From Halorhabdus sp. BNX81 (GTDB taxonomy: Archaea; Halobacteriota; Halobacteria; Halobacteriales; Haloarculaceae), in NCBI RefSeq assembly GCF_029229925.1, contig NZ_CP107254.1, positions 434,001 to 498,000 of the forward strand: 64,000 nucleotides of DNA, in the 5' to 3' direction. The translations under genes were made by a program, and so were the position numbers. Below the pieces are notes generated by a model. It ran no database searches. It saw only the letters and a program-made list of their open reading frames with translations, and was not told the origin of the DNA. Below are positions 12,659 to 16,118 of this stretch, in pieces (within the stretch, counting starts at the first letter, position 1; the number at the start of each line of letters is the position of its first letter).

Positions 12659-12769
12659 CTCCCTGCGATCATACGCTCCATTGTCATATATTCACAAACG
12701 CTCCTATCGGGGACGCTGCGCGGTGATTTCCGGGGAAGGTTTTTGGGGACACCACCGTTACCTGTTGGC

Positions 12770-14407
12770 ATGACTCCCGACCGGGCCGTCCTCGAACGCG
12801 CGATCGAGCGCGGCGAGCGCGAGGGCGGCAGCGTCGAGTTCAAGGAACGCCTGACTCGCGATACGCACCTCGTCGACGGTCGCCTCGAAAGTCTGGCCGC
12901 CCAGCTTCGCCACCGCGTCCTCAGCGGCGACGGCGAGGCGACCTACGTTGTGGGGATCACCGACGACGGGAACCTGGCTGGTATCGACCCCGAGGCGTTC
13001 TCCGAATCGATGGACGTCCTCTCGCTGCTCGCCGACGAAGCCGGGGCGCACATCGAGGACGTCGAGACCTGGGGGGTCGACGGGGAGGGCAATGCCGTCC
13101 GTGGCCAGTCCGGCGAGCGCGGGATCGCCGGTGTGGCGACGATCCGGGAGGGCGCGGTCATGGACGACGACGAGCACATCGTTGTCGGGACCGCCGGCCA
13201 CGTCGACCACGGCAAGAGCACCCTCGTCGGCTCGCTCGTAACGGGCCAGGCCGACGACGGCCAGGGCGGGACGCGCTCGTACATGGATATTCGCCCCCAC
13301 GAGGTCGAGCGCGGCCTCTCCGCCGATCTTTCGTATGGCGTCTACGGCTTCGACGACGACGGCCCCGTCCGGATGGACAACCCCGACCGGAAGACCGACC
13401 GCGCACGGATCGTCGAGGAGGCCGACCGCCTCGTGAGCTTCGTCGATACGGTCGGCCACGAGCCCTGGCTCCGGACCACGATCCGCGGGCTCGTCGGCCA
13501 GAAGCTCGATTACGGCCTGTTGACGGTTGCTGCCGACGATGGGCCCACCAAGACGACCCGCGAACACCTGGGCATCCTGCTGGCGACCGAACTGCCGACG
13601 ATCGTCGCCATCACGAAGGCCGATCTCGTCGACGCCGACCGGATCGCCACAGTCGAGCGTGAGGTCGAGCGCCTGCTGCGGGACGTCGAGAAGACACCGC
13701 TGCCGGTCGAGCGCCACGGCGTCGACGCCGCGATCGAGGAGATCTCAGAGACCGTCGTCCCCGTGGTGACGACCAGCGCCGTCACGGGCGATGGACTCGA
13801 CACCTTAGACGAACTCTTCGAGCGACTCCCCAAGACCGGTGGCGACGAGACCGCGCAGTTCCGGATGTACGTCGACCGCTCCTACAACGTCACCGGCGTC
13901 GGCGCGGTCGCCTCGGGGACGATCAACGCCGGCCGCGTCGAGGCCGGTGACGAACTCCTGCTGGGGCCGATGGCCGATGGCACCTTCCGCGAAGTCGAGG
14001 CCCGCTCTATCGAGATGCACTACCACCGCGTCGACGAGGGCCGTGCCGGTCGGATCGTCGGTATCGCGCTGAAAGGCGTCGAAGAACAGGACGTCGAACG
14101 CGGGATGGTCCTCCTGCCCCGCGAAGCCGATCCCCAACCGGTCCGGGAGTTCGAGGCCGAGGTGATGGTGCTCAACCACCCGACGCGGATCGGCGAGGGC
14201 TACGAACCCGTGGTGCACTTAGAGACAATCAGCGAGGCCGCCGCGTTCTATCCCGAGGGCGGCCAGCTACTTCCGGGCGACAGCGGGCGGGCGCGCGTTC
14301 GGTTCAAGTTCCGGCCGTATCTGGTCGAGGAAGGCCAGCGCTTCGTCTTCCGGGAGGGGCGCTCGAAGGGCGTCGGCACGGTGACGGACGTGACAGGCGT
14401 GGAGTGA
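12770..14407 (+). CDS. GTPBP1-like translational GTPase
   Basis: A 545-residue EF-Tu/eEF1A-superfamily GTPase related to eukaryotic GTPBP1/2, which act in ribosome rescue and mRNA surveillance. An N-terminal domain (about 1-140, with VEFKERLTRDTHLVDGRLE) precedes G1 GHVDHGKST (about 145), G3 DTVGHEPW, G4 TKADLVD and two beta-barrel domains. The ATG is preferred to a TTG nine codons upstream because TTTTTG lies about 30 bases before it. Its last 64 bases recur at 16055-16118, marking this gene's 3' end as the junction of an inserted islet. Confidence 0.9.
   Translation: MTPDRAVLERAIERGEREGGSVEFKERLTRDTHLVDGRLESLAAQLRHRVLSGDGEATYVVGITDDGNLAGIDPEAFSESMDVLSLLADEAGAHIEDVETWGVDGEGNAVRGQSGERGIAGVATIREGAVMDDDEHIVVGTAGHVDHGKSTLVGSLVTGQADDGQGGTRSYMDIRPHEVERGLSADLSYGVYGFDDDGPVRMDNPDRKTDRARIVEEADRLVSFVDTVGHEPWLRTTIRGLVGQKLDYGLLTVAADDGPTKTTREHLGILLATELPTIVAITKADLVDADRIATVEREVERLLRDVEKTPLPVERHGVDAAIEEISETVVPVVTTSAVTGDGLDTLDELFERLPKTGGDETAQFRMYVDRSYNVTGVGAVASGTINAGRVEAGDELLLGPMADGTFREVEARSIEMHYHRVDEGRAGRIVGIALKGVEEQDVERGMVLLPREADPQPVREFEAEVMVLNHPTRIGEGYEPVVHLETISEAAAFYPEGGQLLPGDSGRARVRFKFRPYLVEEGQRFVFREGRSKGVGTVTDVTGVE
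14344..14407 (+). repeat. Direct repeat, proximal copy (3' end of GTPBP1-like gene)
   Basis: The last 21 codons of the GTPBP1-like gene, stop included. They match 16055-16118 with about five base differences in 64, and every difference is synonymous (including TGA against TAA). This copy is at the left edge of the AT-rich islet and completes the present gene. Confidence 0.9.
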
Positions 14408-14438
14408 TTGATACTTGCAAACGATTTTTGATTGCTCG

Positions 14439-15293
14439 ATGGAAGCCAGTCAAACGAGTAGATTGCTAACGGTTTATCAAGGGGGGCTCGTTTCCCTTTC
14501 ATCACTTCTTCTTTTGGAATTCGGAATGAAACGATTGAGTCTAGTTTGTCTCCTGTCGACCATAGTCATTCTGGAACTGATCAACACTCGAATACACCCG
14601 GCCAATGACTCTACAGATTGGCTCGAAGCAAAGGAGTACCGTATGGATATCCAACAAGATGCGAGTGATGTCGCACTGGCTATGGGTATCGAACCACCAC
14701 GGGTCATCATTTCAGGGGGTATGGACACTCTTTCAATTATATTCGCCGACGAGAACCTGATAATTGTACCACGACTAGTAGTCGCGGGCCTTGATCGGGA
14801 TATTGTGAAAAGTCTTCTCGCCCATGAACTGGGACATATCTATCACCGCTCTTTGGTACTAGAAGCGTTTCACAAGGCATCGACTTCGTATGTAGGCTTT
14901 CTGGGTCTCTGGCTAGGATTCCTCCGTGGGCGCACGCTTGTTATTATAATCGGGATTTCATTAGTATACATTTTCATGGCCACATTCAAACGAAACTATC
15001 TGGGAAATCTGTTCCTGATTGCGACGAGTCTCGGGGCTATCCTTCCTTCTCTTTGGGCGTACATCGCGAGACAACGGTGTAATGAATATCTTGCTGACGA
15101 AATTGCGGCGAAACACGTGGGGGCAACGACATTTGCTCATGGTCTTCAGGTAATCAACAATCGATTACAATCGGTAGAACCTAGTCAGGATGCCAACGTG
15201 TCATTATTCAACCGCCCCAGACAATGGATGGCCCACCATCCTCCTATAAGTGCTCGAATTCGTCGTTTAGGTGTCGATCCAGAAGAAATATAG
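14439..15293 (+). CDS. Membrane M48-type zinc metalloprotease
   Basis: A 284-residue integral membrane protease of the HtpX/Ste24-like M48 group. Two hydrophobic helices lie near the N terminus and two more around 165-210. The active site HELGHIYH gives zinc ligands His129 and His133 and catalytic Glu130; the third ligand is Glu216 in EYLADE, with Asp220 at the usual ExxxD spacing. It therefore looks catalytically intact. The ATG is used; an in-frame TTG eight codons earlier is possible. It lies in the AT-rich islet and converges on the archaemetzincin-like gene. Confidence 0.85.
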   Translation: MEASQTSRLLTVYQGGLVSLSSLLLLEFGMKRLSLVCLLSTIVILELINTRIHPANDSTDWLEAKEYRMDIQQDASDVALAMGIEPPRVIISGGMDTLSIIFADENLIIVPRLVVAGLDRDIVKSLLAHELGHIYHRSLVLEAFHKASTSYVGFLGLWLGFLRGRTLVIIIGISLVYIFMATFKRNYLGNLFLIATSLGAILPSLWAYIARQRCNEYLADEIAAKHVGATTFAHGLQVINNRLQSVEPSQDANVSLFNRPRQWMAHHPPISARIRRLGVDPEEI

Positions 15294-15297
15294 CCGG

Positions 15298-15894
15298 TCA
15301 ACGAAGGTGCTCTTCACCAATAGTTTCGCAACATTCACCACAAATGTATTCATCCAGTTCGGAAAGCGCTTGCTTATTGCCAGTGTATTGCATTACACAC
15401 CCTTCGGTGGTACAGTCAGCTACACCGAGCATCTGGCCCATCAGTTTGATAACCTCATTTCGCATCCACTCCGATGACTGGTCGGTCCACTGTCCATCTT
15501 CATAGAATTCGGCCGTTGTAACAAGAGAGATATCTCCAGCCAAATATGACATCCCGAATATATTATTTCGGCGCTTATGGTAGATTGGCAGATCCGTGAT
15601 CGTGATCGTCTTCATCCCCTCTCCTATTTCACCAATACGGATCAACCTCTCCGCTTCATAGCACTCGCTGTCGGAGTCATAAGCCACATCTCGAATCGAA
15701 GTAGGGTCGTCAAATTCCGCGGGGTTGAATTTTTCATCAACATCGAATCTCGAAAGGGGCCGATGAACCGCATCAAAATGCGTTTCGATCGCACTTTCGA
15801 GTTGAAATCTTGCCTCTTCGATGGGGTTACCGATCATCTGCGATGTCACTTCCAAAGTAGGCGCATCGACTGAATCTGATCTGAACAGTGCCAT
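15298..15894 (-). CDS. Archaemetzincin-like protein with destroyed catalytic zinc site
   Basis: A 198-residue protein with the M54 archaemetzincin layout. It has NNIFGMSYLAGDISLVTT, matching the family FVFGEA-LGG strand. It then has a segment in the exact spacing of HExxHxxGxxHC but reading KLMGQMLGVADC (residues 150-161). His, Glu, His and His are replaced by Lys150, Leu151, Gln154 and Asp160. The structural zinc motif CX4CXM-CX2C is kept (Cys161, Cys166, Met168, Cys185, Cys188). It is thus probably a folded pseudo-protease. The ATG is preferred over an upstream TTG; GATTTACC lies about 25 bases before it. Confidence 0.75.
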   Translation of the reverse strand: MALFRSDSVDAPTLEVTSQMIGNPIEEARFQLESAIETHFDAVHRPLSRFDVDEKFNPAEFDDPTSIRDVAYDSDSECYEAERLIRIGEIGEGMKTITITDLPIYHKRRNNIFGMSYLAGDISLVTTAEFYEDGQWTDQSSEWMRNEVIKLMGQMLGVADCTTEGCVMQYTGNKQALSELDEYICGECCETIGEEHLR

Positions 15895-16054
15895 TGGATG
15901 ATATAAAGTGTGGGCTGGTAAATCAAATGTGTTACGTGTCAATTTTCATTTTCCAAAAATTCCGAACATTCCCCGGACCAATTCTTTATAATCTTCTGTC
16001 ACTTTCACGTGGCGATCTGAGTGAGTTTTCTAAAAGTTGAGGGGGTGGTGGGGC

Positions 16055-16118
16055 CGTCTTCCGGGAGGGGCGTTCGAAGGGCGTCGGGACGGTGACGGAC
16101 GTCACTGGCGTGGAGTAA
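16055..16118 (+). repeat. Direct repeat, distal copy (orphan GTPBP1-like 3' end)
   Basis: This encodes the same last 20 residues as the GTPBP1-like protein followed by TAA, but has no upstream gene attached. All differences from 14344-14407 are silent. It marks the right edge of the islet; after it the sequence returns to ordinary GC-rich DNA and the araA end. Confidence 0.9.

Follow-up and report, generated by a model that had tools for sequence, protein, structure and literature searches.

A pseudo-archaemetzincin and an HtpX-like M48 peptidase gene as the cargo of a small island in Halorhabdus sp. BNX81

The window analysed here, i.e., the whole stretch of 64,000 nt from Halorhabdus sp. 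BNX81 (NZ_CP107254.1, 434,001-498,000; all positions below are window coordinates), contains an archaemetzincin (M54) that retains the fold of the family and has lost its catalytic motif. Its gene lies on an island together with a gene for an HtpX-like M48 membrane peptidase, and archaemetzincins that have lost the motif recur in other haloarchaea, beside LemA and GIDE-like genes. The protein probably acts by binding a partner and not as an enzyme. We give about an even chance to the more specific reading that it is a soluble protein-binding module and the partner of the co-inserted M48 peptidase, the pair being mobile cargo. The gene and its motifs are as follows:

15298..15894, minus strand: pseudo-archaemetzincin, 198 aa from ATG, or 214 aa from a TTG at 15942 (ORF, Pfam M54, NCBIfam, AF2 model, fold search)
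15412..15447, minus strand: degenerate catalytic motif KLMGQMLGVADC, which replaces HExxHxxGxxHC (alignment columns)
15331..15414, minus strand: retained structural zinc site, with Cys codons at 15412-15414, 15397-15399, 15340-15342 and 15331-15333 and the Met of the Met-turn between them

The frame is open on the minus strand for both starts, 15298-15894 (ATG) and 15298-15942 (TTG). The ATG is the better start, because the resulting MALFRSD resembles the MALFPPE, MSIFPHD and MTVFPHG starts of dead relatives, and because the AF2 model has mostly low confidence over the 16 N-terminal residues (1-16) that the longer version adds. Hydropathy revealed no membrane segment.

In an alignment of 41 sequences, KLMGQMLGVADC fills exactly the columns of HExxHxxGxxHC, which read HE[IV]GHxxGLEHC in all 23 canonical haloarchaeal AmzA sequences. 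The catalytic positions H, E, H and H have become K, L, Q and D, and the stretch corresponding to HExxHxxGxxH in active peptidases reads KLMGQMLGVAD. The Cys4 zinc finger described for archaemetzincins (PMC3427221) is preserved: all four zinc-site columns hold Cys, C-x4-C-x-M and C-x2-C are intact, and counting along the translation gives the pattern CX4CXMX17CXXC, except that the spacer before the last CxxC has 16 residues rather than 17. The earlier note had read the sequence in the same way, as a catalytic site erased with the loss of its three His and its Glu and a structural zinc site kept with its four Cys and Met-turn Met, and both readings are borne out. The intact fold and structural zinc site would also suit an enzyme that is still metal-dependent and uses Lys, Gln and Asp as altered ligands; the catalytic Glu and the three His are all absent, however, and this set of residues is, to our knowledge, no known zinc peptidase site, which leaves this reading very improbable.

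Homology to M54 is beyond chance. The Pfam M54 match is weak (25.5 bits against a cut-off of 24.4), the NCBIfam archaemetzincin model NF033823 matches at E 8e-13 (48.6 bits, under its curated naming cut-off of 145 bits), and the sequences of solved AmzA structures match at E 6e-5. AlphaFold run on the single sequence gave a pLDDT of 31; the 41-row alignment was then supplied, and the resulting AF2 model has a pLDDT of 83.3 and a pTM of 0.80, although it partly inherits the AmzA fold, given that the alignment included canonical AmzAs. The evidence for M54 drawn from sequence matching is independent of this inherited fold. The closest structure to the model is AmzA 4axq (Z 21.5 over 161 residues, 1.8 A), and the four AmzA structures score Z 21.5, 20.9, 20.0 and 17.3, the next metzincin family reaching 13.4. 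The comparison with AmzA structures proposed in the earlier note thus returned a metzincin fold (Z 17.3-21.5 to the four). The protein is M54 by fold and ancestry, yet fails the defining peptidase motif.

The host genome also has an intact canonical amzA elsewhere. In the tree, one tight cluster (93/87) holds the canonical proteins, among them the host amzA beside those of its sisters. The window's protein falls outside this cluster, on a long branch among unresolved dead forms; a recent decay of the host amzA was therefore rejected. Profile scores for the protein are nearly tied (86.9 bits for the dead type and 81.3 for the canonical type). The best match among the 391 genomes of the class is a canonical AmzA at 38%. 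The one match among genome contigs, at L011, was rejected as an orthologue: it came through KFNPAEFD only, in a 191-aa frame that we take to be GrpE.

Searching with the protein found an archaemetzincin in 389 of 391 haloarchaeal genomes and a second copy in 12, the window's included. HExxH is missing from all 11 of the other second copies, and from all eight further dead forms found by profile search and at the GIDE-guided locus L135; some of the profiles were built from members of the dead family, so these searches lean towards finding members. In one dead type, which reads SEVGY, the Glu column is retained with no His ligand; some others retain one or two His ligands, and the motif as a whole is retained in none. 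The earlier note had asked whether the dead form is a conserved subfamily: dead forms do recur in other genomes, whereas no close orthologue of the window's protein was found in the 391 class genomes, IMG/VR, PLSDB or INPHARED.

C-terminal hydrophobic segments occur in 16 of the dead proteins (L080, L081, L083-L088, L122-L128 and L135; L086 is counted by near-identity to L083), and not in L082, L089, L090 or the window's protein. All 16 anchored forms lie beside LemA (PF04011, 123 bits) and GIDE-like genes (PF12483, 19.3 bits, under the cut-off of 23.6), and are convergent with them where strands were read. The first zinc Cys has been lost in many of them; the window's protein keeps all four. 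Conversely, GIDE-like matches at E < 1e-75 in 356 genomes stand beside a dead archaemetzincin in 15 cases out of 15, the next match being at 7e-29. Because these same loci supplied the GIDE alignment, this converse test shows only that close GIDE relatives keep the dead-M54 neighbour, and L135 (G003) is the sole locus brought in independently by the GIDE search. The GIDE profile has no match in the window's genome, and the window's protein, with no membrane segment and no LemA or GIDE on its island, falls outside the anchored group.

Some loci vary this arrangement. At L135:4784-7076, in a genome of the window's genus, LemA and a GIDE-like gene accompany a very divergent dead archaemetzincin missed by Pfam M54. 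Locus L138 (G034:C3:139107-144720) holds at least five tandem GIDE-like ORFs, all on the same strand, and a LemA-like ORF is interspersed with these. The dead archaemetzincins at L082:5623-6150, L089:6337-6855 and L090:5419-6000 have neither membrane segments nor LemA/GIDE neighbours. Literature searches brought up no useful papers on archaemetzincin pseudoenzymes or on an association of LemA, M48 and GIDE.

Among the anchored dead forms, close pairs have dN/dS values of 0.32-0.58, which suggests that these forms evolve fast under some constraint. The selection proposed in the earlier note has a parallel in these relatives; for the window's own gene, which has no close orthologue, it is a conjecture. 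These values bear on the reading of the gene as a decaying pseudogene, i.e., a captured amzA that has lost its function and drifts on a dispensable island. The loss of all four catalytic positions, the very long branch, the lack of an orthologue in which to measure selection and the single copy of M54 in most genomes fit such decay. Nevertheless, the 198-codon frame is intact with the four zinc Cys and the Met kept, the predicted fold is confident, and the dead paralogues elsewhere have dN/dS values below 1, so we consider decay unlikely.

The setting of the gene is given by the following features:

12743..14407, plus strand: host GTPBP-like GTPase gene (Pfam EF-Tu domains), with the insertion site at its 3' end
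14344..14405, plus strand: left 62-bp repeat, attL-like, now forming the 3' end of the GTPBP-like gene
14406..16054, no strand: inserted island of 1649 bp, with a GC of 0.46 where the flanks have about 0.67; sister genome G006 lacks it
14415..15293, plus strand: HtpX-like M48 membrane metallopeptidase, with HELGH, EYLAD and about four hydrophobic segments (Pfam M48, 37 bits; HtpX models)
16055..16116, plus strand: right 62-bp repeat, attR-like, 94% identical to the left one, a second copy of the gene 3' end, which adjoins the downstream sequence of the host

The pseudo-archaemetzincin and the M48 peptidase are the whole recognised cargo of the island, a feature that the earlier note does not mention. 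It lies between the GTPBP-like gene and a downstream gene that we take to be arabinose-isomerase-like. The repeat copies lie 1711 bp apart. In G006 the site is empty, with one repeat copy, and the joined flanks align continuously at 93% over 1199 bp. Both the duplication and the empty site are plain from this comparison. The GTPBP-like gene is present in single copies, 90-98% identical, in the six other genomes of the genus. In G005 its end is duplicated around a different insertion of about 3.06 kb and 52% GC (L028:4540-7670), bounded by near-repeats of 58-60 bp and carrying a transposase-like ORF and small ORFs without assignment; the two elements have no common sequence outside the repeats. 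When an 88-bp probe was run against 142 family genomes, flanking copies of the gene end were found in two genomes only, the window's and G005, the remaining double matches being short chance matches or two near-identical contigs (G140).

Direct-repeat att-like sites at a gene 3' end and an empty site, both expected of a site-specific element, are present; an integrase of its own is not, as none was recognised on the window's island or seen on that of G005, and the two PF00589 matches in the window's genome are both far from the island. Rfam gave no match in the 12-19 kb region of the window. Between the two 62-bp copies there are four differences, and in comparison with six relatives both copies carry substitutions of their own, so that they do not reveal which att copy came from the element. 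Hence, either the insertion is not very recent or the repeat came from another species. The M48/dead-M54 pair would have entered by site-specific integration at the GTPBP-like 3' end, the integrase having been lost or acting in trans. On the evidence of this island, the 3' end of a protein-coding gene in haloarchaea can host a very small integrase-less cargo.

The M48 gene is intact, with HELGH at residue 137, EYLAD at 224 and membrane segments, i.e., the HExxH, downstream Glu and hydrophobic segments of HtpX-like proteins. It converges with the pseudo-archaemetzincin gene at a distance of 4 bp. No homologue of the M48 protein past 1e-30 was found in 142 family genomes. One dead-M54 locus, L084 of G274, has an M48 gene (577 aa, 75.5 bits) ahead of LemA: at L084:2039-6562, M48, LemA and GIDE-like genes follow one another, and the gene of a membrane-anchored dead archaemetzincin converges with them. 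At L146, an M48 gene lies near a GIDE-like gene with one gene in between, presumably pyruvate dehydrogenase-like and unrelated. The earlier note had asked whether the dead form always adjoins an M48 gene, and a constant M48 neighbour was not upheld: such adjacency occurs at two loci, the window's and that of G274, and the genes that recur beside dead forms are LemA and GIDE-like ones.

The reading as a partner of the M48 peptidase is favoured because of the co-inserted pair, the parallel in G274 and the association that dead M54 proteins generally have with membrane modules. Given that neither the protein nor the M48 peptidase has a close orthologue, the pairing rests on one locus and one distant parallel. 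Against it, the genes are convergent, i.e., not co-transcribed, the protein has no membrane segment of the kind found in its LemA/GIDE-linked relatives, its genome gives no match to the GIDE profile, and its profile score favours the dead family over canonical AmzA by a small margin only. In mechanistic terms, the pseudo-archaemetzincin would bind and control the HtpX-like peptidase of its island, as an adaptor, cap or inhibitor, while the membrane-anchored dead relatives would serve LemA-GIDE membrane complexes.

The same pair could be a protease and its inhibitor, resembling a toxin-immunity or defence system carried as mobile cargo, in which the M48 peptidase would damage a competing element or the host and the dead metzincin would keep the peptidase in check. 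The two genes do fill the island, the site holds another low-GC island in a sister species, and the distribution is patchy; however, PADLOC matched neither protein, a convergent arrangement is unusual for toxin-antitoxin pairs, and we know of no archaemetzincin inhibitor of M48. We hold this version of the pairing to have a small chance of being correct.

The protein's partner might instead belong to transcription or be another cytosolic protein, unrelated to the adjoining M48 peptidase. The precedent is CarG, a non-proteolytic, zinc-associated archaemetzincin that binds CarD and is needed for CarD action (PMC3427221, PMC4374960). The absence of a membrane segment in the window's protein and a match to the CarG model NF033824 (non-proteolytic archaemetzincin-like; 18.2 bits, E 0.0017) agree with such an adaptor, although this match is weak and far under the cut-off of 250 bits. 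Moreover, CarD and CarG are reported only from myxobacteria (PMC4374960), and the M48 gene is the only co-inserted gene. A CarG-like adaptor is therefore improbable here, and by score the protein is not CarG. The role of regulator, decoy or substrate-binding partner that the earlier note had suggested is nonetheless plausible, and CarG, an already known non-proteolytic archaemetzincin, is a precedent for it.

Returning to the M48 partnership, a broader version of it is that haloarchaea repeatedly turned the archaemetzincin into a dedicated non-catalytic subunit of membrane protease, LemA or GIDE assemblies, and that one protein of this kind travels together with its M48 peptidase, the two being all that a minimal integrase-less island carries at a hotspot in a protein gene. 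This we put forward tentatively, as a possibility somewhat short of even. Little is known so far of what archaemetzincins do in the cell, and the 16 genomes with dead paralogues beside LemA and GIDE-like genes provide a testable link of this fold to archaeal membrane quality control.

In comparison with known systems, the island resembles integrase-less att-flanked elements of the CIME or satellite type, which likewise hold cargo between direct repeats of a gene 3' end with no recombinase; it differs in being just 1.65 kb and in that the gene used is not a tRNA gene but that of a GTPBP-like protein. With AmzA (PDB 4axq, 3zvs, 2x7m and 3lmc), the protein has in common the fold, the Met-turn and the Cys4 zinc finger, although its four catalytic residues are changed, identity over the structural match is at most 20%, and its N-terminus is longer. 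CarG of Myxococcus xanthus (NF033824) is alike as a non-proteolytic M54 protein working through protein binding, but its replacement of the catalytic Glu by Gln (PMC3427221) is milder than four losses, and its partner CarD is reported from myxobacteria alone. HtpX (M48B)/LemA neighbourhoods, such as that of pneumococcus, where the locus tags of lemA and htpX follow one another and the two genes are listed with similar fold-changes (PMC8546594), also hold an HtpX-like M48 gene, whereas that of the window has no adjacent LemA and a dead M54 in its place. Finally, the membrane-anchored dead archaemetzincins are tied to membrane modules, and once to M48; although the window's protein has neither their C-terminal helices nor the loss of the first zinc Cys, it is like them an M54 protein without HExxH, and has the MxxF-type N-terminus found in most of them.
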